64,000 nt of DNA from the NCBI RefSeq assembly GCF_000718015.1, contig NZ_JODY01000037.1:40780-104779 (forward strand), read 5' to 3'. Source of the stretch: Streptomyces catenulae. Its GTDB lineage: Bacteria > Actinomycetota > Actinomycetes > Streptomycetales > Streptomycetaceae. Below the pieces are notes generated by a model. That model did no database searches. It saw only the letters and a list, made by a program, of their open reading frames with translations, and was not told the origin of the DNA. The stretch's first letter is position 1. Each line of letters begins with the position of its first letter. Positions 213-10,376 of this stretch are shown here, in pieces. The position numbers and the translations under genes were made by a program.

Positions 213-1835
213 TCAGGGCCGGGGCGCTGCGCGCCTGATCGCCCTTCCCGCCAGGACCTCCGTGCGGTGGCCGTTCTCGATGACGGGCTCGCCGTTGATG
301 AGGACGTGGGGGATGCCGGTGGGCAGGGTGCGCGGGGCGGCGAAGGTGGAGCCGGCGGCGACCGTTTCCGGGTCGAAGAGGACGAGGTCGGCGCGGTAGC
401 CCTCGCGGATCAGGCCCCGGTCGGGCAGGCGCAGGCGGGCGGCGGGCCGGGAGGTGAGGTGGGCGACGCACTCCTCCAGGGAGAGGACGCCCAGTTCACG
501 GACGTAGTGGCCCAGGTAGTGGGGGAAGGTGCCGTAGGCGCGCGGATGCGGCTTGGCGCCCTGGAGGATGCCGTCGGAGCCGCCGGTGTGGACGCGGTGG
601 CGCATGATCCGGCGGACGTTCTCCTCGTGGCCGACGTGCTGGAGGATCGTCGGGCCGAGGTGGTCGTCGATCAGCAGACGGCGGGCTACGGTCCACGGCT
701 CCTCGCCGCGCGCGGCGGCGCTCTGTGCGACGGTCCGCCCGACGTACGGGGCGAACGCCGGGTCCGTCGTCCCGGAGATCTCGATGGTGTCCCACTCGAT
801 GGGCACGCCGTGGCAGCCGTCGGCGCCCTCGACCTCCATGGTGTGCCGGATCCGGGCGGCGCTCCCCTCGTCCCGCAGCCGGGCGAGAATCGCCTCGGGC
901 CCGCCCTCGCTCGCCCAACTCGGCAGCATCGCGACCAGCGTCGTACAGCCGGGGGTGTACGGATACGAGTCGAGGGAGATGTCGGCGCCGCCGTCCAGCG
1001 CCGCGTCCAGCAGGGCCAGCAGCTCGGGGGCGCGGTCCTTGTTGACGCCGAAGTTCATGGTGGCGTGGGCGAGATGGAGGGCGCAGCCCGCCTCGCGGGT
1101 GAGGGCGACCATCTCCTCGTACGCCTGGAGCGCACCGGCGCCGTAGGAGCGGTGGTGCGGGCAGTAGTAGCCGCCGTATTCCGCCACGACGCGGCAGAGT
1201 TCGGTCAGTTCGGCGTCGGAGGCGTACATGCCGGGGGTGTAGGTGAGGCCGGAGGAGAGGCCGACGGCGCCCTGTTCCAGGCCCTCGGCGACGAGTTGCT
1301 TCATCCGGGTCAGCTCGTCGGCGGTGGCGGGGCGGTCCTCCCAGCCCAGGGCGAGCATCCGGACGGTGCCCTGCGGGATGAGGTAGGCGGCGTTGACGGC
1401 GATCCCGGCGCCGTCGAAGCCGTGGTCGAGCCGGTCGAGATAGCCGCCGACCGAGCGCCAGGTGAAGTCGATGTCGCTGCCGTCGCCGTTCCATCCGGCG
1501 ATCTGGGCGCGGACCTCCGCGAGGGTGCGGTCGTCGACGGGCGCGTACGACAGGCCGTCCTGGCCGAGGACTTCGAGGGTGACGCCCTGCGCCGCCTTCG
1601 CCTCGTGCGCGGGGTCGCGGAGGAGGGCGAGGTCGCTGTGGGCGTGCATGTCGATGAAGCCGGGGGCGAGGGCGAGACCGTCGCCGGGGAGCGTGTGGCG
1701 GGCGGACGGGCGGGGACCGGCGTCGCCCTCGCGGTGCACGGTGGCGATCCGGCCGCCGACCAGGGCGACGTCGGCGCGGTAGGACGGGCCCCCCGACCCG
1801 TCGATGACGCGTACGTCGCGGAGCACGGTGTCCAT
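213..1835 (-). CDS. D-aminoacylase-like amidohydrolase (N-acyl-D-amino acid/amino-sugar-acid deacylase family)
   Basis: A 540-residue cytoplasmic metal-dependent amidohydrolase expected to remove an acyl group from an N-acylated D-amine. Visible metal-site features are GFIDMHAHSD (H64, H66), the HLAH cluster (H254, H257) and the late Asp in GGSDG (D421), with a C-terminal composite sandwich segment (YRADLVLFDP). Known D-aminoacylases carry a conserved Cys in a GNCG motif after the first strands as a metal ligand. Here the equivalent stretch reads LEVLGQDGLS, so the enzyme belongs to a divergent subfamily and its substrate may not be an ordinary N-acyl-D-amino acid. The start is the ATG at 1835, preceded by an AAAGGCAG-type RBS. 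It lies downstream of and co-oriented with the PLP enzyme and opposite the sugar-acid kinase/GntP operon, which suggests an N-acyl sugar acid as substrate. That substrate is inference. Confidence 0.85.
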   Translation of the reverse strand: MDTVLRDVRVIDGSGGPSYRADVALVGGRIATVHREGDAGPRPSARHTLPGDGLALAPGFIDMHAHSDLALLRDPAHEAKAAQGVTLEVLGQDGLSYAPVDDRTLAEVRAQIAGWNGDGSDIDFTWRSVGGYLDRLDHGFDGAGIAVNAAYLIPQGTVRMLALGWEDRPATADELTRMKQLVAEGLEQGAVGLSSGLTYTPGMYASDAELTELCRVVAEYGGYYCPHHRSYGAGALQAYEEMVALTREAGCALHLAHATMNFGVNKDRAPELLALLDAALDGGADISLDSYPYTPGCTTLVAMLPSWASEGGPEAILARLRDEGSAARIRHTMEVEGADGCHGVPIEWDTIEISGTTDPAFAPYVGRTVAQSAAARGEEPWTVARRLLIDDHLGPTILQHVGHEENVRRIMRHRVHTGGSDGILQGAKPHPRAYGTFPHYLGHYVRELGVLSLEECVAHLTSRPAARLRLPDRGLIREGYRADLVLFDPETVAAGSTFAAPRTLPTGIPHVLINGEPVIENGHRTEVLAGRAIRRAAPRP

Positions 1836-1962
1836 GGAGCTGCTGCCTTTCGGTACGTCGGCCTTGCGGTCGAGCCTGCGGTCGGCCGGTGTCCGGGGCG
1901 GTTCGCCGGTCGGGTGGGGAGGGGCGGAGGGGCGGGGTGAGACGTGGGGGGCGTGGCCCGGG

Positions 1963-2007
1963 CGGGGGCGGTTTGTTCAGGAAGGCTTCCTGAGCGAAAC
2001 GCCCCCG
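1963..2007 (-). terminator. Interrupted hairpin between the PLP-enzyme and deacylase genes
   Basis: An outer stem CGGGGGCG/CGCCCCCG (1963-1970 with 2000-2007) plus a short T/A extension encloses an inner palindrome TCAGGAAG-G-CTTCCTGA (1977-1993). It sits in the 225-bp gap between two minus-strand genes, so it could be a terminator or attenuator after the upstream gene, or an operator. There is no U-run, so a terminator call is tentative. Confidence 0.45.
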
Positions 2008-2019
2008 CCCGTACCGCTT

Positions 2020-2077
2020 CCGGAAGAGCGTCCGGAAGGAGGTCCGGAGGAACGTCCGGTCTAGAAGAACGTCCGGA
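2020..2077. repeat. Degenerate 12-bp tandem repeat straddling the 3' end of the PLP-enzyme gene
   Basis: CCGG cores recur at 2020, 2032, 2044 and 2056 with an exact 12-bp period, then once more at 2073. Read on the minus strand the units resemble CCGGACGTTCTT. The last copy lies inside the coding end (residues IRTFF) and the others lie beyond the TAG stop, as if the gene end had been slipped or duplicated out into the intergenic region. Confidence 0.7.
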
Positions 2078-3389
2078 TGAAGTCCACGACCGTGCCGTCG
2101 GATTCGACCAGCGGGATCAGCTGCCACTTGTCGAAGGAGGTGCAGGGGTGGGAGAGGCCCATGCCGACCCAGTCGCCGACCTCCAGGGCGTCGGCGGACT
2201 CGGTGGCCAGCCAGGCGTGCTGGTCGGAGAGACCGGTGACGGTGACTCCGGCGGCGGGCCGCTCGGCGCCGTCCCGGGCGGAGCGGACCACCTGGGCCCG
2301 CGGCAGGTCGAGGTCGTAGGCGGCGTCCCGCTTCCCGGCGTTGGCGAACGCCTGGTGCGGGGTGGGGCGGGAGACGATCTGCGCCCAGAGGCGGAACGCG
2401 GGCTGGAGGGTGCCCTCCTCGGGGACCCGGTTGAACGGTGTGAGGTGGCGGTAGTGGCCGTCGTCGTGCGAGACGTACGCGCCCGAGCGCAGCAGCTTGA
2501 GGACCGGGGCGGAGAGCGCGGGGATCTCGGCGAAGACCTCGGCGACCGCGTCGAACCAGGCGCTGCCGCCCGCGCTGACGACGATCTCGTCCACCCCGGC
2601 GAACCGGCCCTCGGCGTCGAACGCGGCGGCGAGCGCCACCAGACGGCGCAGCCAGGCGGTGACCTTGGTGTGGTCCGCGTCGGGGACCTCGCCCTCGTAT
2701 CCGGCGACACCGGCCAGGCGCAGGGTGGCGGTCGCGGCGACGGCGTCGGCCACCGCGCGGCACTCCGCCTCGGTGCGGACGCCGGTGCGGGCGCCCTCGC
2801 CCGCGCCCAGCTCGACGACGACGTCGACGGGGCGGCGGGCCCCGGCGTCGCGGAGCGCGGCGTCCATCAGCTCGACGCCGCGGACGGAGTCGACGTAGCA
2901 GACGAAGTGGAACTCCGGGTCGGCGTCCAGCTCGGCGGCGAGCCAGCGCAGGGCGGCGGGGTCGACCAGTTCGTTGGCGAGGAAGATCCGGGCGATGCCG
3001 TGGGCGCGGTAGACGCGGGCCTGGTGGGGGACGGCGGCGGTGATGCCCCAGGCGCCGTGCTCCAGCTGGCGGACGAAGAGCTGCGGGGCCATGGAGGTCT
3101 TGCCGTGCGGGGCGAAGGCGAGGCCGTGCCGCGTCGCGTACGTCTCCATCAGCGCGAGGTTGTGCGCCACGGACTCGGCGGAGAGCGCGAGGACGGGGGT
3201 GGTGAAGCCGCCGTCGAAGAGGTTGCGGCGTTCGGCGGCCAGTTCCCCGACGGTGCGGCCCTCGGCGTCCGGCGGGAGCGCCTTGAAGCGGTGGTCGACG
3301 CGTTCGTCCGCGAGGGCCCGGGCGGCCGCCGTCGCGGGGGCGTGCGGGTCCGTGGCGGGCCGGTCGTGGGTGAGCCGGTCGTCGGCCAT
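2061..3389 (-). CDS. PLP-dependent D-serine dehydratase/D-threonine aldolase-fold enzyme (amino acid deaminase or D-glucosaminate dehydratase)
   Basis: A 442-residue fold-III PLP enzyme. The Schiff-base lysine is K97 in FAPHGKTSM, followed by an alanine-racemase-type barrel and a C-terminal D-serine-dehydratase-like domain with the conserved LSHPCTSFDKW (H414 and C416, probable zinc ligands). Family members eliminate water and ammonia from D-serine or D-threonine, and D-glucosaminate dehydratase is reported as a PLP enzyme. Sequence alone cannot choose between these. The neighbours (KDG-type kinase, RidA, GntP permease, deacylase) favour a sugar-acid substrate giving 2-keto-3-deoxygluconate. 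RidA would then hydrolyse the enamine intermediate. The ATG start at 3389 follows GGAGG. The gene is divergent from the kinase operon across a 471-bp intergenic region that carries operator-like sequence. Confidence 0.85.
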   Translation of the reverse strand: MADDRLTHDRPATDPHAPATAAARALADERVDHRFKALPPDAEGRTVGELAAERRNLFDGGFTTPVLALSAESVAHNLALMETYATRHGLAFAPHGKTSMAPQLFVRQLEHGAWGITAAVPHQARVYRAHGIARIFLANELVDPAALRWLAAELDADPEFHFVCYVDSVRGVELMDAALRDAGARRPVDVVVELGAGEGARTGVRTEAECRAVADAVAATATLRLAGVAGYEGEVPDADHTKVTAWLRRLVALAAAFDAEGRFAGVDEIVVSAGGSAWFDAVAEVFAEIPALSAPVLKLLRSGAYVSHDDGHYRHLTPFNRVPEEGTLQPAFRLWAQIVSRPTPHQAFANAGKRDAAYDLDLPRAQVVRSARDGAERPAAGVTVTGLSDQHAWLATESADALEVGDWVGMGLSHPCTSFDKWQLIPLVESDGTVVDFIRTFF

Positions 3390-3510
3390 GGGGCCTCCTC
3401 AGAGCTGGGCGCCGGGCGCGGGCTGCGCCGCGGCGTGCCGGTCGGTGCTGGGCGAAGTATGCGCCGGGGGATCGGGGCGGGGCCGGATCGGGTCGGGCCT
3501 CTCCGTATCC

Positions 3511-3550
3511 GTTGCATATTCTGCAACACCCATTGCGTATATCGCTTAAT
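3511..3550. promoter_or_regulatory. Palindromic operator, probably for the local IclR regulator
   Basis: GTTGCA-TATTC-TGCAAC (3511-3527) is a perfect 6-bp inverted repeat with a 5-bp spacer. A degraded copy with the same layout, TTGCG-TATAT-CGCTT, follows at 3533-3547. The spacing matches IclR-type half-site geometry, and the only local regulator gene is iclR at 5063. The site lies 122 bp from the PLP-enzyme start and about 310 bp from the kinase start, so it could control both directions. The remainder of 3390-3860 holds no supportable gene. Confidence 0.6.
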
Positions 3551-3860
3551 GCTGTCTAACATCCGAGCCGACGCCGGGTCAATGACGGGTGTCGGCGGTC
3601 GTCACGGCCGCCGCGCACGCCGTGTCCCGGGCCGGAAATCCGGTGGTCACCGCGGTCGTCGGCCGCACCGCCACCGGACGCCCGGCACCCGCCGCCCGCA
3701 CCCGCCGCGACCGCCGCCCGGCCCTCGCCCCCGAGCCGCCGCCCGGTACGTCCACCGCCGCGACGCGTGCCGGACGGACGGCTCCGGCGCCGCGGTACGG
3801 CCGGGTCCCCGGATCCGGCGACGGCTTCCCCACACGGCACAGCTAAGGAGCACCACCCTC

Positions 3861-5066
3861 GTGACCAGGCCCTCGAACGCCAGCGGCACCGCAGGCCAGG
3901 ACGGCGGCGCCACCCACGGCGCCGGGCTCCCGGCGGGCTCCACCGACGTCGTCTGCCTCGGCGAGTCCATGGTCACCTTCCTGCCGTCCCGCCCCGGGCG
4001 CCTCGCCGACGTACCCTCCTTCGCGCGCGCCATCGGCGGCGCCGAGTCCAACGTCGCCTGCGTACTGGCCGCCGCCGGACACCGCGTCCGCTGGGTCTCC
4101 CGGGTCGGCGCCGACGGCTTCGGCGACCACCTCGTCGCCGCCATCGCCGCCCACGGCGTCGACACCGGCCACGTCGCCCGCGACCCGCACCGCCCGACCG
4201 GTATCTACTTCCGTACCGCGGGGGAGCGGGCCACCGGCGCGGACGGCGAGGAGCCCGACGCCGCCGAGGTCGTCTACTACCGCGCCGGATCCGCCGCCTC
4301 CGCCATGACCCCCGACTCGCCGGGCCCCGCCGCCCTCGACGGCACCCGGGTGCTGCACCTCACCGGCATCACCGCGGCGCTCTCCGACAGCTGCCTCGCC
4401 GTGCTGCGCACCCTCACCCGCCGCACCCCGGACCGCCCGCTGGTCTCCTTCGACGTCAACTACCGCGTCGGGCTGTGGCAGGGCCGCCCGCAGGGCCCCG
4501 AGACCCTGCTCGACCTGGCCCGCGGCGCCGATGTGGTCTTCGTCGGGGAGGACGAGGCGGCGGCCGCCTGGGATCTGCACGGGCCCGAGGCGATCCGCGC
4601 GGCGCTGCCCGAACCGGCCGTCCTCGTCGTCAAGCAGGGCTCCGAGGGCGTCACGGTCCTCCACCGGGAGGCCACGGACGGCGCGCACCCCGGCACGGCC
4701 CCCGGCGCGCCCGCCGGTGCCGACACGCCCGCCGGAGCCGGTGCCGACACGCCCGCCGCCGACACCCGCACCTACGCCCCCGCCCTCACCGTCGACGTCG
4801 TCGCCTCCGTCGGCGCGGGGGACGCCTTCGCCGCCGGATTCCTCTCCGGGACCCTGCGCGGGCTGCCGGTGTTCGACCGGATCCGGCACGGGCACCTCAT
4901 GGCCGCCGCCGCGCTGACCGTCCCCGGTGACCTCGCTGGACCGCCGCCACGCCCGCTCGCCGACCGCCTCGCCGCCCTTCCCGCCGGTGACTGGGGGAGA
5001 CTGCGTCTCGGCCCCGGCTGGACGACGGGGCTGCACGACACACGGGTGGAGGTCCCCCAGACATGA
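3861..5066 (+). CDS. kdgK: PfkB-family sugar kinase, 2-keto-3-deoxygluconate kinase type
   Basis: A 401-residue ribokinase-family enzyme. The substrate-binding GGAESNVA (59-66), the SFDVNYR..LW segment (196-206) and the anion-hole/catalytic GAGDAFAAGF (318-327, base D321) are all present, and the SFDVNYR and GGAESNVA versions resemble KDG kinases more than fructokinases. Expected reaction: ATP-dependent 6-phosphorylation of 2-keto-3-deoxygluconate, feeding KDPG aldolase. The start is GTG 3861 behind AAGGAG at 3845. The open frame continues far upstream but without coding character. An unusual insert of Ala/Pro/Gly/Asp/Thr (about 272-303) carrying GADTPA repeats interrupts the C-terminal half. 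The stop overlaps the iclR start (ATGA), so the two are translationally coupled. Confidence 0.85.
   Translation: MTRPSNASGTAGQDGGATHGAGLPAGSTDVVCLGESMVTFLPSRPGRLADVPSFARAIGGAESNVACVLAAAGHRVRWVSRVGADGFGDHLVAAIAAHGVDTGHVARDPHRPTGIYFRTAGERATGADGEEPDAAEVVYYRAGSAASAMTPDSPGPAALDGTRVLHLTGITAALSDSCLAVLRTLTRRTPDRPLVSFDVNYRVGLWQGRPQGPETLLDLARGADVVFVGEDEAAAAWDLHGPEAIRAALPEPAVLVVKQGSEGVTVLHREATDGAHPGTAPGAPAGADTPAGAGADTPAADTRTYAPALTVDVVASVGAGDAFAAGFLSGTLRGLPVFDRIRHGHLMAAAALTVPGDLAGPPPRPLADRLAALPAGDWGRLRLGPGWTTGLHDTRVEVPQT
4714..4758. repeat. 24-bp-period duplication inside the kinase gene
   Basis: A 21-bp unit beginning CCGGTGCCGACACG occurs at 4714-4734 and again identically at 4738-4758. In frame it encodes two GADTPA copies in a surface insert of the kinase. 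It keeps the reading frame and is absent from the usual KDG kinase core. Confidence 0.85.
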
Positions 5067-5842
5067 GCCAGACAGTAGACCGCGCACTGAGCATCCTTCC
5101 GCTGCTCGCCGAGGGCCCGGCCAACCTCGAACAGGTCGCGGTCCGCCTCGGCGTGCACAAGTCGACCGCGCTGCGGCTGCTGCGGACCCTGCACGAGCAC
5201 GGCATCGTCTACCGCCAGCCCGACCAGCGCTACCGCCTCGGCGCCCGGCTCTTCGCCCTCGCCCAGCAGGCGGTCGAGAACCTCGACGTGCGCGACATCG
5301 CCCACCCCCACCTCGTCGCCCTCAACGAGAGTTGCGGACACACCGTCCACCTCGCCGTCTACGAGGAGAACGAGGTCCTCTACATCGACAAGGTCGAGAG
5401 CCGCTACCCGGTGCGGATGTACTCGCGGATCGGCAAGCCCGTCGCGATCACCGTCGCCGCGGTCGCCAAACTGCTCCTCGCCGACCTGTCCGACCCCGAG
5501 CGCCGCGGCATCGCGGAGAAGCTCGACTACCCCCTCTACACGTCCCGTTCGACACCGAACGCCGCGGCCTTCCTGGCCGAACTGGCCAAGGTCCGCGAAC
5601 AGGGCTGGGCCACCGACCTCGGCGGCCACGAGGAGTCCATCAACTGCGTCGGCGCCCCGATCCGCGGCGCCGACGGCCGGGTGGTCGCCGCGATGTCGGT
5701 CTCCGCACCGAACGTCGTCGTCACCGCCGACGAACTCCTCACCCTCCTCCCGCTGGTGCGCCGCACCGCCGACGCCATCAGCCGGGAGTACTCCGGAACA
5801 GCAATCCCCCGGCCCTCCGCCGGTCCCGCACAGGAAGCCTGA
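5063..5842 (+). CDS. IclR-family transcriptional regulator
   Basis: A 259-residue regulator: N-terminal winged helix-turn-helix (about 4-65, with NLEQVAVRLGVHKSTALRLL as the recognition region) and a C-terminal IclR effector domain (about 80-250, including the typical ...INCVGAPIRGADGRVVAAMSV stretch). It would sense a catabolic intermediate and control the divergent sugar-acid/D-amine genes. The ATG overlaps the kinase TGA by 4 bp and the next gene starts 5 bp after its stop, so it sits in the operon it probably regulates. The palindrome at 3511-3527 is the best candidate site. Confidence 0.9.
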   Translation: MSQTVDRALSILPLLAEGPANLEQVAVRLGVHKSTALRLLRTLHEHGIVYRQPDQRYRLGARLFALAQQAVENLDVRDIAHPHLVALNESCGHTVHLAVYEENEVLYIDKVESRYPVRMYSRIGKPVAITVAAVAKLLLADLSDPERRGIAEKLDYPLYTSRSTPNAAAFLAELAKVREQGWATDLGGHEESINCVGAPIRGADGRVVAAMSVSAPNVVVTADELLTLLPLVRRTADAISREYSGTAIPRPSAGPAQEA

Positions 5843-5847
5843 ACACC

Positions 5848-6258
5848 ATGACCGAGAAGACCGCGCTCACCCCGGCCACCCACACCACCCCGCCCGCGAA
5901 GTTCTCCCACGGCGTCAGGAAGGGCAACATCCTCCAGGTCGCCGGCCAGGTCGGCTTCCTCCCCGCCGAGGAGGGCAAGGCCCCCACCCCGGCCGGTCCC
6001 ACCCTGCGCGAGCAGACCCTCCAGACCTTCGCCAACGTCCAGGCGATCCTCGAAGAGGGCGGCGCGACCTGGGACGACGTCATGATGATGCGCGTCTACC
6101 TCACCGACGTGGACCACTTCGCCGAGATGAACGAGATCTACAACGCCTACTTCGAGGAGCAGGGCCTCAAGGAGGCGCCCGCCGCCCGCACGACCGTCTA
6201 CGTCGGTCTGCCCAAGGGCCTGCTCATCGAGATCGACGCGCTCGCCGTCCTGAGCTGA
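5848..6258 (+). CDS. ridA: RidA/YjgF family enamine/imine deaminase
   Basis: A 136-residue protein of the Rid family, which forms trimers and hydrolyses reactive enamine/imine products of PLP dehydratases to keto acids. Conserved features include the core LREQTLQTFANVQAILEEGG, the catalytic-site Arg in AARTTVYVG (R114) and the acidic IEIDALAV strand (E128). Its place in the same operon as, and next to, a fold-III PLP dehydratase is a strong functional hint: it would clear the enamine released by that enzyme. The ATG is 5 bp after the iclR stop. Confidence 0.9.
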   Translation: MTEKTALTPATHTTPPAKFSHGVRKGNILQVAGQVGFLPAEEGKAPTPAGPTLREQTLQTFANVQAILEEGGATWDDVMMMRVYLTDVDHFAEMNEIYNAYFEEQGLKEAPAARTTVYVGLPKGLLIEIDALAVLS

Positions 6259-6314
6259 CCCGACGGACCGGGCCGCACCCGGCCACCGTCCACCGCCGCA
6301 CCGGCCGTCCGTAC

Positions 6315-6368
6315 GGCACCCACCGCAGGGGTCGCCGTACGGGCCCGGGCCGGGCACCCACCGCAGGG
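6315..6368. repeat. Direct repeat in the ridA-gntP gap
   Basis: GGCACCCACCGCAGGG occurs at 6315-6330 and 6353-6368 (38-bp period) in the 295-bp gap between ridA and the permease gene. The gap has no coding signal. A separate promoter for the permease is possible but I see no clear -35/-10 pair. Confidence 0.7.
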
Positions 6369-6553
6369 TCCCGGCCACCCACACCCCCCACCGAGCAACC
6401 GCCTTGCCCTTAAAGCACCTTCACCCGCACCGTCCGCCGCACGGCGCGGCGCCCCGCACCTCCGGGGCGCCGTGCCGCGGTCCGCCCTGCCCCGAGACGC
6501 ATTCCAGGGGAGCCACCCGGACCTCCGGGCCCCGCCGACAACGGAGTCACACG

Positions 6554-8035
6554 ATGTTCCTCGCCGCCGCCACGGCCCCCGCGCCACCGCCCCCGCCGCC
6601 GCACACGGGCGGGCTGCTCGCCCTGATACCGGGCACCCCGGGCCTGCTGACCGTCGCCGTCCTCGGCATCGCCCTGCTGCTTGTGCTGATCATCAAGTTC
6701 CGGCTACAGCCGTTCGTCGCGCTGCTCACCGTCTCCATCGCGGTCGGACTGGGCGCCGGACTCTCCGTCACCGAACTCTTCGGCACGGTCCAGAAGTCCG
6801 ATGTGAAGTCCATGATCGAGAGCGGTATGGGCGGCACCCTCGGCCATATCGCGATCATCATCGGTCTGGGCACCATGCTCGGCTCGATCCTGGAGGTCTC
6901 CGGCGGCGGTGAAGTGCTCAGCACCCGCCTGCTGAACCTCTTCGGCGAGCAGCGCGCCCCGCTCGCCATGGGCCTGACCGGCCTCCTCTTCGGCATCCCG
7001 GTCTTCTTCGACATCGGCATCTTCGTCCTCGCCCCGATCGTCTACGCGGCGGCCAAACGCGGCGGCAAGTCGATGCTCCTCTACTGTCTGCCGCTGCTCG
7101 GCTCGCTGTCGATGACCCACGCCTTCCTGCCGCCGCACCCCGGACCGGTCGCCGCCGCGAGCCTCTTCCACGTGGACCTCGGCTGGATCATCCTGATGGG
7201 CCTGGTCTGCGGTATCCCCGCGGTCCTCGCCACCTGGGCGTGGGCCGCCTGGATCGGTAAGCGGATCTTCGTCGAACTGCCGCAGGACATGGCCGAGGCG
7301 GCGGACGAGGCGAAGGCGGCGGTCCTCGCCGAACAGCGCGCCGCCGGGGTCACCCCGCAGGAGAAGCCGGTGTCGCTGGGCGCCGTCCTCACCATCATCG
7401 CGATACCGCTGGTGCTGATCCTGCTGTCGACGTTCTCGTCCATCGCGCTGGACCCCAGTACGTTCCGGTCGGTCGTCGAGTTCTTCGGCAACCCGTTCGT
7501 CGCGCTGAGCCTCGCGCTCTTCGCCGCGTACTACCTGCTCGGCATCCGCCGCGGCTGGTCGCGCAAGTCGCTGGAGCGGGTCTCCACCGCCTCGCTCAAG
7601 CCGATCGGCAACATCCTGCTGGTGGTCGGCGCGGGCGGCGTCTTCGGCGCGGTCCTCCAGGGCAGCGGCGTCGCGAACGCCCTCTCCGACACCTTCCACG
7701 GCGTCGGGCTGCCGGTCATCGTGCTGGCCTGGCTGCTCTCGCTGGTGCTGCGCGTCGCCCAGGGCTCGGCGACCGTCGCCATCGTCACCACCGCCGGGAT
7801 CGTCCTGCCGCTCGTCCAGGGCCAGGGCATGTCGCAGGCGCATCTGGCGCTGATCATCATGGCGATCTCGGCCGGTTCGATCTTCGCCTCGCACGTCAAC
7901 GACGGCGGCTTCTGGATGGTCGCCAAGTACTTCGGCATCTCCGAGCGCGACACCCTGAAGTCCTGGACGGTCCTGGAATCCGTCCTCTCGGTCGCGGGCT
8001 TCGCGGTGGCGGCGCTGGTCAGTCTGGTCGTGTAG
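6554..8035 (+). CDS. GntP-family gluconate/sugar-acid permease
   Basis: A 493-residue inner-membrane transporter of the gluconate:H+ symporter family, with about 12 hydrophobic segments from residue 25 to the C-terminus and GntP-type motifs such as GIPVFFDIGIFVLAPIVYA, the AFLPPHPGPVAAA loop and the late segment SHVNDGGFWMV. The ATG at 6554 precedes a short Pro-rich cytoplasmic tail; upstream in-frame sequence to 6404 lacks coding character. Being in the kinase-iclR-ridA operon, its substrate is likely the sugar acid or N-acyl sugar acid used by the pathway. Exact specificity is inference. Confidence 0.9.
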   Translation: MFLAAATAPAPPPPPPHTGGLLALIPGTPGLLTVAVLGIALLLVLIIKFRLQPFVALLTVSIAVGLGAGLSVTELFGTVQKSDVKSMIESGMGGTLGHIAIIIGLGTMLGSILEVSGGGEVLSTRLLNLFGEQRAPLAMGLTGLLFGIPVFFDIGIFVLAPIVYAAAKRGGKSMLLYCLPLLGSLSMTHAFLPPHPGPVAAASLFHVDLGWIILMGLVCGIPAVLATWAWAAWIGKRIFVELPQDMAEAADEAKAAVLAEQRAAGVTPQEKPVSLGAVLTIIAIPLVLILLSTFSSIALDPSTFRSVVEFFGNPFVALSLALFAAYYLLGIRRGWSRKSLERVSTASLKPIGNILLVVGAGGVFGAVLQGSGVANALSDTFHGVGLPVIVLAWLLSLVLRVAQGSATVAIVTTAGIVLPLVQGQGMSQAHLALIIMAISAGSIFASHVNDGGFWMVAKYFGISERDTLKSWTVLESVLSVAGFAVAALVSLVV

Positions 8036-8225: not shown

Positions 8226-9137
8226 ATGAACCGACCTCTCGTCGGCACCCTCGCCACCGTCGTGCTGGGCGCCGCCGCCCTGGTGGGCACCGCCGGAACG
8301 GCCGGTGCCGCCCAGCAGTCCGGCACGGACGCCCCCAACACCTTCCGTGCGACCACCCCCATATCCGCCCCGGCCAAGGCCCACACCCAGGCGGTCGACT
8401 TCGCCGGGACGGTGGCGCTCAGCAACTGCTCCGGCTCCATCGTGAAGATGCCGACCTCCAAGGACACCGACCCGGCACTCGTCATGACGAACGGTCACTG
8501 CCTGGAGTCCGGGATGCCGGGGGCGGGCGAGGTCATCGTCGACCAGCCCTCCACCCGCAGCTTCACCGTCCTGGACGCCAAGGCGGGTGAGCTGGGCACC
8601 GTCAAGGCGACCAAGGTCGTCTACTCGACGATGACCGACACCGACGTCACCCTCTACGAGAGCGGCTCCACCTACGCCGACATCCAGCAGAAGTACGGCA
8701 TCAAGCCCTTGGAGCTGGACACCGCGCACCCCACCGACGGCCACAAGATCACCGTGGTGTCGGGTTACTGGAAGCAGACCTACTCCTGCGCCATCGACGG
8801 CTTCGTCCCCCAGCTCAAGGAGGGCGACTGGACCTGGAAGGACTCGGTCCGCTACACCACCGACTGCAAGACGATCGGCGGTACCTCCGGCTCCCCGGTG
8901 ATCGACGACGAGACCGGCAAGGTCACCGCCATCAACAACACCGTCAACGAGGACGGTGAGAAGTGCACGCTCAACAACCCCTGCGAGGTGGACGAGAGCG
9001 GCGCCGTCACCGTGCACAAGGGCACCCCGTACGGCCAGGAGACCTACGGCATCCCGAAGTGCTTCACCGACGGCAACAAGCTCGACCTGAGCGCCTCCGG
9101 CTGTGAGCTGCCCAAGCCGTCCGGCGTCCGCCGCTGA
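8226..9137 (+). CDS. Secreted trypsin-like (S1 family) serine protease
   Basis: A 303-residue exported protein. A Sec signal peptide (basic MNRPLVGT, hydrophobic core, AGAA cleavage region near 28-30) precedes a chymotrypsin-fold domain. The triad is visible: His in VMTNGHC (H91), Asp in TDTDVTLY (about D140) and Ser in GTSGSPV (S221). Paired cysteines (68/92 and several C-terminal) suggest disulfides outside the cell. ATG 8226 is preceded by GAGAGGA. It stands alone between two terminators, converging on the chitinase gene. Likely role: extracellular protein degradation. Confidence 0.9.
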   Translation: MNRPLVGTLATVVLGAAALVGTAGTAGAAQQSGTDAPNTFRATTPISAPAKAHTQAVDFAGTVALSNCSGSIVKMPTSKDTDPALVMTNGHCLESGMPGAGEVIVDQPSTRSFTVLDAKAGELGTVKATKVVYSTMTDTDVTLYESGSTYADIQQKYGIKPLELDTAHPTDGHKITVVSGYWKQTYSCAIDGFVPQLKEGDWTWKDSVRYTTDCKTIGGTSGSPVIDDETGKVTAINNTVNEDGEKCTLNNPCEVDESGAVTVHKGTPYGQETYGIPKCFTDGNKLDLSASGCELPKPSGVRR

Positions 9138-9245: not shown

Positions 9246-10292
9246 TTACGGCAGGCTGTGCACGTGCTTGCCGACCTGGCTCGCGAAGGCGTTGCCGTTC
9301 GCCGCGTCCCAGTTGGTCGACCAGGTCATCGCACCGCGCAGCCCGGGGTACGTCTTCGACGGCTTGAAGGTGCCGCAGCCGCTGCCCTTCGTCAGACAGT
9401 CCAGCGCGTCGTTGACCACCGACGGGGCGGTGTAGCCGCCGCCCGCCGCACTGGAGGACGCCGGGACACCCAGACCGACCTGGGAGGGGTCGAGGCCGTT
9501 CTCCAGCTGGATGCAGGCGAGCCCGGTCAGGAAGTCCACGGTGCCCTGGGAGTAGACCTTGCCGTCACAGCCCAGCATCGAACCGCTGTTGTAGTACTGC
9601 ATGTTGACGACGGTCAGGAAGTCCTTGATCCCCAGCGCCGTCTTGAAGTACTCGTTCTGCGGCGACTGCATGTCGATGGTCTGCGGCGCCATCGTCACCA
9701 CCACATCGGGGTGCTTGGCGTGCACCGCCTTCAGCGCCTGCGTCATGTACGTGGAGTTCAGGCCGTTCTCCAGGTCGATGTCGACGCCGTTGAAGCCGTA
9801 CTCGTCCATCAGCTTGTCCAGCGACGCGGCGAAGGCGTCCGCGGAGGCGGAGTCGCTGACCGAGACGGCCCCTTTCTCGCCGCCGACGGAGAGGATCACG
9901 GACTTCCCCGCCGACTGCTTCGCCTTGATGTCGGCCTTGAAATCGTCGGCGGAGGCGTAGCCGACCGCCGGATCGAGGTTGAAGGTGATCTCGCCAGGCT
10001 TGCCCGTCGCGTCGGCGAAGGCGACCGCGATGATGTCGTACGCGTCATCGACGTCCTTCAGCTTCTGGACGGTGGCGCCGTTGTTGAAGTTCTGCCAGTA
10101 GCCGGTCACCGCGTGCTTGGCCACCGCGGACGCGCCCGCCGCCGGAACGGATTGCCGGTGGGCCTCCGGCGCCGCCTGCGCGGTGCCCGCGGAGAGCGCA
10201 CCGCCCGTCAACAACGCCGCCACGGCGACCACGGCCGGCAGCGCCTTCCTCGTCGTACCCGAACGTGTCTTCCTGCTTCGTGCGCCAACCAC
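9246..10292 (-). CDS. Secreted GH18 chitinase
   Basis: A 348-residue exported protein with signal peptide ending near AQA-APEA (about residue 40) and a single GH18 TIM-barrel without a carbohydrate-binding module. The catalytic signature appears as FNGVDIDLEN (168-177, acid E175), with the preceding SVILSVGGEKG strand and later MQYYNS, all typical of family 18. Expected reaction: hydrolysis of chitin with retention through the N-acetyl group. GTG start at 10292. Regulation: a dre-like palindrome lies about 73-84 bp upstream, consistent with DasR/GlcNAc control of Streptomyces chitinases. Its product would feed the amino-sugar metabolism that may be represented by the operon at 213-8035. Confidence 0.92.
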   Translation of the reverse strand: MVGARSRKTRSGTTRKALPAVVAVAALLTGGALSAGTAQAAPEAHRQSVPAAGASAVAKHAVTGYWQNFNNGATVQKLKDVDDAYDIIAVAFADATGKPGEITFNLDPAVGYASADDFKADIKAKQSAGKSVILSVGGEKGAVSVSDSASADAFAASLDKLMDEYGFNGVDIDLENGLNSTYMTQALKAVHAKHPDVVVTMAPQTIDMQSPQNEYFKTALGIKDFLTVVNMQYYNSGSMLGCDGKVYSQGTVDFLTGLACIQLENGLDPSQVGLGVPASSSAAGGGYTAPSVVNDALDCLTKGSGCGTFKPSKTYPGLRGAMTWSTNWDAANGNAFASQVGKHVHSLP

Positions 10293-10364: not shown

Positions 10365-10376
10365 TGGTCCAGACCA
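10365..10376 (-). promoter_or_regulatory. dre-like DasR operator upstream of the chitinase
   Basis: TGGTC-CA-GACCA at 10365-10376 is a perfect inverted repeat in its 5-bp arms and matches the DasR-responsive element core (TGGTCTAGACCA) and the 12-bp repeat known from Streptomyces chi promoters. On the minus strand it follows a TTGACA -35-like hexamer (10389-10384), so the operator lies within the presumed promoter. Confidence 0.75.

Follow-up and report, generated by a model that had tools for sequence, protein, structure and literature searches.

The closest described counterpart of the genes considered here is the ong cluster, which was established by genetics and enzymology in Pseudoalteromonas prydzensis (PMC9537276). 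Its parts are OngB, a D-aminoacylase-like deacetylase of 2-acetamido-2-deoxy-gluconic acid (N-acetyl-D-glucosaminate, GlcNAc1A), OngC, a fold-III pyridoxal phosphate (PLP) enzyme that converts glucosaminate to 2-keto-3-deoxygluconate (KDG) and ammonia and for which D-Ser and D-Thr are also substrates, the kinase KdgK, the RidA protein OngD, the GH20 enzyme OngA, an SSS symporter and a MurR/RpiR repressor (PMC9537276). When 2,455 marine genomes and 12,220 terrestrial ones were surveyed, the pathway was complete in Gammaproteobacteria and in a single Betaproteobacterium (PMC9537276), and a term search of the main text of both ong papers (PMC9537276, PMC12017989) returns no mention of Streptomyces or Actinobacteria. 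Here we analyse a 64,000-nucleotide stretch (the window) of the 7.05 Mb genome of Streptomyces catenulae, in which six genes around a divergent control region are probably the core catabolic part of a regulon for C1-oxidised chitooligosaccharides in Streptomyces. This genus is a classic example of chitin degraders, and among openly licensed papers we found no report on its use of oxidised chitin ends. The pathway itself is already published for Pseudoalteromonas (PMC9537276) and has to date been demonstrated in Gram-negative bacteria only; what is new here is the reconstructed regulon and its actinobacterial variant. The six genes and the operator between them are as follows, with lengths in amino acids (aa).

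213 to 1835, minus strand: D-aminoacylase-like amidohydrolase deacylase (540 aa; Pfam Amidohydro_3), the proposed GlcNAc1A deacetylase
2061 to 3389, minus strand: fold-III PLP enzyme, D-serine dehydratase-like (442 aa; Pfam D-ser_dehydrat and Ala_racemase_N), proposed to dehydrate D-glucosaminate to KDG and ammonia, the role of OngC
3511 to 3527, no strand: operator box 1, GTTGCATATTCTGCAAC, a perfect 6-bp inverted repeat and predicted IclR site, from sequence and conservation
3532 to 3550, no strand: operator box 2, ATTGCGTATATCGCTTAAT, imperfect, its TTGC lying 21 bp past the TTGC of box 1, the same tandem spacing as at eda
3861 to 5066, plus strand: PfkB-family kinase (401 aa; Pfam PfkB; nearest structure 1v19), the proposed KDG kinase
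5063 to 5842, plus strand: IclR-family regulator (259 aa; Pfam HTH_IclR and IclR_C), predicted to bind the palindrome
5848 to 6258, plus strand: RidA-family protein (136 aa; Pfam Ribonuc_L-PSP), the counterpart of OngD
6554 to 8035, plus strand: GntP-family permease (493 aa; Pfam GntP_permease, TIGR00791), the proposed importer of the free aldonic acid

All six frames are intact, and all six proteins score above the cut-offs of the Pfam families given. The kinase start was taken as the GTG at 3861 and the GntP start as the ATG at 6554 (the listed open reading frame (ORF) begins with a TTG at 6404), and the RidA frame is part of a longer listed ORF. For comparison, 80 loci were fetched as the best of 461 relatives by similarity to the window PLP enzyme, and after 11 with short flanks were dropped, 69 named loci remained (68 from Streptomyces and one from Embleya hyalina). 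Because they were chosen as closest to this PLP enzyme, they sample the kinase-bearing part of the genus. Genes for the deacylase, PLP enzyme, kinase, IclR protein and RidA protein occur together in 69/69 of them, as the counterparts of all but the IclR gene do in the ong cluster, and GntP is present in 61. The arrangement is not due to chance, and an earlier sequence-only reading was right about the families and their placing around a divergent control region. The Embleya hyalina locus carries the same cluster, including kinase and operator, and thus the system extends outside Streptomyces proper. At E<=1e-60, the PLP enzyme is found in 148 of 150 Streptomyces genomes sampled, that of S. catenulae included.

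The divergent control region carries the palindrome GTTGC-N7-GCAAC (box 1) with a weaker second box, the TTGC boxes being 21 bp apart. The palindrome lies upstream of the PLP gene in 30/30 best-scoring loci, own genome included, and the tandem site is present there in all 69 named loci, whose 1.05 Mb hold no further TTGC-N7-GCAA. Searching the S. catenulae genome for the palindrome located a site upstream of its best gene for an aldolase of 2-keto-3-deoxy-6-phosphogluconate (KDPG), eda, on another contig. Compared with the cluster operator, this site shows the same pair of boxes at the same spacing. The palindrome is directly upstream of eda in 29/30 best-scoring loci, that of S. catenulae among them, and these 107 kb hold one palindrome elsewhere. 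Placing eda under the cluster operator fits the needs of the pathway, since the pathway must end in KDPG cleavage.

A further site in the S. catenulae genome (C34:11613) lies 20 bp before the gene for a solute-binding protein (SBP) with a lipoprotein-like signal, and downstream of it are two permease genes and one for a GH20 hexosaminidase with no obvious signal peptide, both signals being judged by eye. The palindrome is directly before the SBP gene in all 21 genomes that show that SBP, out of 40 hand-picked other genomes. Thus, as in ong, a GH20 enzyme and an importer appear to be under common control, in the own genome and in those 21. The cluster, eda and this ABC transporter-GH20 operon share one operator within a single genome, which speaks for the earlier proposal of a sugar-acid pathway. 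Where a species has no ABC genes, GH20 itself often has the palindrome before it. A plain count gives the palindrome at GH20 in 6/30, the 40 GH20 upstream stretches having been hand-picked, with the first 20 drawn from genomes where the 450 bp before GH20 hold no palindrome. One genome (G046) has no PLP enzyme at E<=1e-60, yet keeps the GH20 palindrome.

Further double sites in relatives lead to a lactonase-family beta-propeller (Pfam PF10282) that seems to carry a twin-arginine signal. Of its orthologues, 29/50 have the palindrome upstream (22/30 and 7/20 in two sets, L249-L298), or 20/41 when the nine first found through the palindrome are subtracted. Oxidation by lytic polysaccharide monooxygenases (LPMOs) gives a lactone first, and for this reason a lactonase is a fitting partner in the regulon. 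Twenty hand-picked double-site stretches led in nine cases to the lactonase, in one to GH20, in one to an MFS transporter and in three to eda or the cluster in other genomes; several (L241-L243, L247 and L248) led to genes with no evident link to the pathway. The MFS case is a double site before a sugar-transporter gene in genome G021 (L240), and the protein is a possible alternative importer.

In the S. catenulae genome, the strict double site occurs three times in 7.05 Mb and not at all in a reversed control. The third of these (C3:426755) was discounted on inspection by eye as one of the TTGCCG..CGGCAA type. There are seven full GTTGC-N7-GCAAC palindromes (matches on both strands), three of which are those of the cluster, eda and the ABC-GH20 operon. 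By ORF inspection only, the remaining four (on C5, C30 and C31 and at C53:10549) have no clear link to the pathway, and one is within an ORF. A match with two mismatches (C23:21990) lies between ORFs resembling a single-strand-binding protein and a ribosomal protein and was rejected. Another recurring palindrome, TTGCCG-N3-CGGCAA, was seen in this genome and several relatives (L080, L389-L391).

From the observed gene families, their conservation, the shared operators and the association of operator with regulator gene, we infer every enzyme activity, the transport substrates, the inducer and the direction of regulation in the following scheme. LPMOs and chitinases would free oligomers ending in GlcNAc1A or its lactone. 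The ABC transporter would import these oligomers and GH20 would trim them to GlcNAc and GlcNAc1A, both being encoded elsewhere behind the same operator, while free GlcNAc1A would enter through GntP. The deacylase would then convert GlcNAc1A to D-glucosaminate, and the PLP enzyme would turn this into KDG and ammonia, with RidA clearing the reactive enamine or imine. The kinase would phosphorylate KDG to KDPG, and Eda, encoded elsewhere behind the same operator, would cleave KDPG to pyruvate and glyceraldehyde-3-phosphate. The IclR protein would repress all units from GTTGC-N7-GCAAC sites, and release would probably be by KDG or a related sugar acid. The sequence-only reading had drawn the chain from GntP through deacylation and the PLP enzyme to KDG and KDPG, with a link to LPMOs; this chain matches the ong pathway, with the exception of the importer, which differs.

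The observations that weigh against this scheme concern the operator and its regulator, the deacylase, and genomes without the kinase, and are given here and in the paragraphs on these subjects below. Motifs of the GTT-11-AAC type belong to the IclR family, where they are frequent in sugar and sugar-acid regulons, and tandem sites whose centres are separated by 18-22 nt are often bound by regulators of this family (PMC8222616). The palindrome has this form and this tandem arrangement, and it co-occurs with the regulator gene. Among 40 hand-picked PLP neighbourhoods, it is present in 30/30 with an IclR gene and in 1/10 without (Fisher p 3.7e-8), and at GH20 it is present in 0/7 genomes without IclR beside the PLP gene as against 31/42 others (p 3.7e-4), although these co-occurrence statistics ignore the phylogenetic relatedness of the genomes. 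In the GH20 comparison one truncated locus was dropped, IclR status was not checked in every kinase-bearing genome, and in one of the IclR-less cases (G120) no ABC gene is within reach and the PLP gene is near a contig start. The IclR protein of the cluster is thus predicted to bind the palindrome. Exceptions are G058, with the palindrome at the PLP gene, and G089, with the palindrome at eda, both without IclR beside the PLP gene. The palindrome is also absent at GH20 in 11/42 genomes not known to lack IclR, at the window genome's own lactonase orthologue (L279), and at the two AA10 LPMO genes of that genome. G058 and G089, and the predicted nature of the assignment, would suit an explanation in which some other regulator binds the palindrome, so that this IclR protein would not unite the cluster, eda and the ABC-GH20 operon in one regulon. 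Given the two contrasts between genomes with and without IclR, and a motif type and spacing that fit the family, we consider this very improbable.

The nearest solved structure to the PLP enzyme is the D-serine deaminase 3gwq. With the NCBIfam model of the 3-hydroxy-D-aspartate aldolase BhcC (NF045642) it scores 87 bits, against a cut-off of 690. The kinase is a PfkB-family protein. Among solved structures the KDG kinase 1v19 is closest to it, and in alignment the two match in the YYR..GSA and DVNYR..LW stretches; the best NCBIfam model for the kinase is a KDG/2-keto-3-deoxygalactonate (KDGal) kinase, below the equivalog cut-off. RidA scores 89.2 bits with TIGR00004, below the cut-off of 106.25, and GntP scores 391.5 bits with the gluconate:H+ symporter model TIGR00791, above its cut-off of 292.75.

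For the deacylase, the nearest solved structures are AfDam, 9g5m, BbDam and PpOngB. In alignment to solved relatives, it keeps the HxH motif, the two metal His, the catalytic Asp and the carboxylate-binding Arg. The zinc Cys of subtype V is replaced by Asp, and Asp is found likewise in 51/51 aligned relatives. Apart from both His, the metal and pocket signature of PpOngB is lacking, with Cys97 replaced by Asp, Glu226 by Tyr, Lys254 by Thr and Ser290-Ser291-Ser292 by Gly-Cys-Thr, Gln298 being not alignable. The Thr at position 292 is as in D-aminoacylases, but the canonical AfDam/BbDam signature is not found either, as the zinc Cys, Lys254 and Ser291 are replaced by Asp, Thr and Cys. Since the residue signature of the known GlcNAc1A deacetylase is lacking, the substrate is assigned from context only, which qualifies the earlier claim that the deacylase frees glucosaminate. 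The protein may represent a third subfamily recruited to the same deacetylation step. An AlphaFold2 model built with 20 close homologues was too poor to use (mean pLDDT 52.7) and was discarded. The structure 9g5m, deposited as “amidohydrolase family protein”, bears the OngB Ser290-292 signature and, its own entry apart, scores best to PpOngB, and from its sequence it may be another GlcNAc1A deacetylase.

A pocket unlike that of OngB at substrate-contacting positions would be explained if the same chemistry served another acylamino sugar acid, for example an epimer (mannosaminate or galactosaminate) or one with an N-acyl group different from acetyl. The bifunctional KDG/KDGal model of the kinase, below cut-off as it is, points the same way. 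GH20 and ABC genes lie behind the operator, which suggests hexosaminides such as chitooligosaccharides instead, and nearly every genome of the genus sample has AA10 genes (148/150). Another sugar acid as the substrate therefore seems improbable to us.

The distribution of kinase and Eda poses a different question. In the 150 Streptomyces genomes, 114 have both the cluster kinase and an Eda of this type, 24 have neither and 12 are discordant. This co-occurrence, uncorrected for phylogeny, speaks for the scheme, and the 24 genomes with neither speak against it. Eda was counted as present at a best E<=1e-45 (120/150 genomes, or 136/150 at E<=1e-20), a threshold set after looking at the data, and presence of the kinase in the cluster was judged by hand among the matches listed. 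All six kinase-bearing genomes that lack Eda are assemblies of about 460 contigs or more. The cluster kinase of G124, counted as kinase-less, is a partial match (L132, 212/401 residues) that is possibly decaying. Three genomes with neither (G113, G120 and G135) have a different, adjacent kinase-Eda pair elsewhere.

From the 24 genomes lacking both, 21 neighbourhoods were fetched, of which 10 keep the deacylase, PLP enzyme, IclR, RidA and operator together, the others having lost more. No specificity switch between the groups was found, there being no fixed difference in the PLP enzyme between 46 kinase-bearing and 24 kinase-less sequences, and one in the deacylase, near the N-terminus (34 against 17 sequences). 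With no fixed difference of note between the groups in either enzyme, the scheme does not account for the fate of KDG in kinase-less genomes. These genomes bear on a reading in which the genes serve the catabolism of N-acyl-D-amino acids: the deacylase would free D-Ser or D-Thr, the PLP enzyme would deaminate these to keto acids and RidA would clear the enamine, while the kinase, GntP and Eda would be a separate sugar-acid module that came to share this regulator in some members of the genus. The retained core in 10/21 neighbourhoods suits it, as do the families, the nearest PDB relatives (a D-aminoacylase and a D-serine deaminase) and the action of OngC on D-Ser and D-Thr (PMC9537276). However, GH20 carries the palindrome in 8/15 of the kinase-less, Eda-less genomes examined (7/10 and 1/5, four of the latter five being without IclR beside the PLP gene), and thus the sugar context often persists. 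Elsewhere the operator stands before eda, the ABC sugar transporter-GH20 genes and the lactonase, which is again a sugar context, and the absence of any noteworthy fixed difference in the PLP enzyme or deacylase is a further argument against it. We regard D-amino-acid catabolism as unlikely, if the least so of the explanations that depart from the one preferred here. The earlier remark is reasonable in saying that D-amino acids would not account for the kinase and GntP, but the deacylase, PLP enzyme, IclR and RidA are retained in some Streptomyces that have no kinase, GntP or Eda.

Beyond the six genes, the window contains a neighbour with an apparent connection to chitin.

9246 to 10292, minus strand: GH18 chitinase, 1.2 kb past GntP, with the DasR-like site TGGTCCAGACCA at 10365

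An exact-match scan of the whole window for sites like the dre consensus gave this single site beside GH18 and none at the six genes. The sequence-only reading had pointed to a DasR-type chitinase at this distance; both gene and site are present, but they add little to the regulon, as the site is DasR-like and the flank fetched around the cluster includes GH18 in 37/69 named loci. A trypsin-like protein (8226-9137) is within that flank in 43/69. The palindrome scan of the window genome finds no IclR palindrome at either gene. AA10 genes are more numerous in genomes with kinase and Eda (mean 3.79, n=114) than in those with neither (2.58, n=24; p 9.4e-5), a comparison that ignores phylogeny and is for that reason kept out of the main evidence.

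On balance, we lean somewhat towards the fuller statement, a near genus-wide regulon for C1-oxidised chitin whose own IclR operator code joins the cluster, eda, ABC-GH20 and often an exported aldonolactonase, and in which deacetylation was independently recruited from a D-aminoacylase-like Cys-to-Asp subfamily. Such a regulon names a transporter, a hydrolase, a lactonase, the catabolic enzymes and a repressor, and so makes the fate of oxidised chitin ends in Streptomyces testable. Deacetylation of amino sugar acids may have arisen more than once from D-aminoacylase-like enzymes, and surveys built on marine sequences may miss such deacetylases.

Among known systems, the DasR regulon of Streptomyces is also one of chitin metabolism, and is linked to the locus by the dre-like site of the adjoining GH18 gene, but has a regulator of another family and another operator. 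The IclR protein resembles KdgR-type regulators in that KdgR is its best NCBIfam match and in the connection with KDG metabolism; it differs in a score far below the cut-off (153 bits against 275) and in an operator, GTTGC-N7-GCAAC, that contrasts with the A/T-rich KdgR motif presented in PMC8222616. With PpOngB (PMC12017989; PDB 9kb1, 9kb3 and 9kb4) the deacylase shares the fold family, by sequence, and Tyr285 in addition to the retained residues described above, and it differs, besides the replacements, in a longer stretch from Tyr285 to the catalytic Asp. The ong cluster is the nearest system as a whole, with a D-aminoacylase-like deacylase, a fold-III PLP deaminase, a KDG kinase, RidA and GH20 leading to KDG-6-phosphate. 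Its SSS transporter OngIT, TonB receptors and MurR/RpiR regulator are not at the Streptomyces cluster or ABC-GH20 operon, the two places searched. Where ong has MurR/RpiR, Streptomyces has IclR; where ong imports through an SSS symporter and TonB receptors, Streptomyces has GntP and an ABC transporter; and the GH20 enzyme, periplasmic in ong, has no obvious signal peptide in Streptomyces. Unlike ong, the Streptomyces system has a deacylase of another subfamily and an eda gene that is unlinked yet under the same operator.

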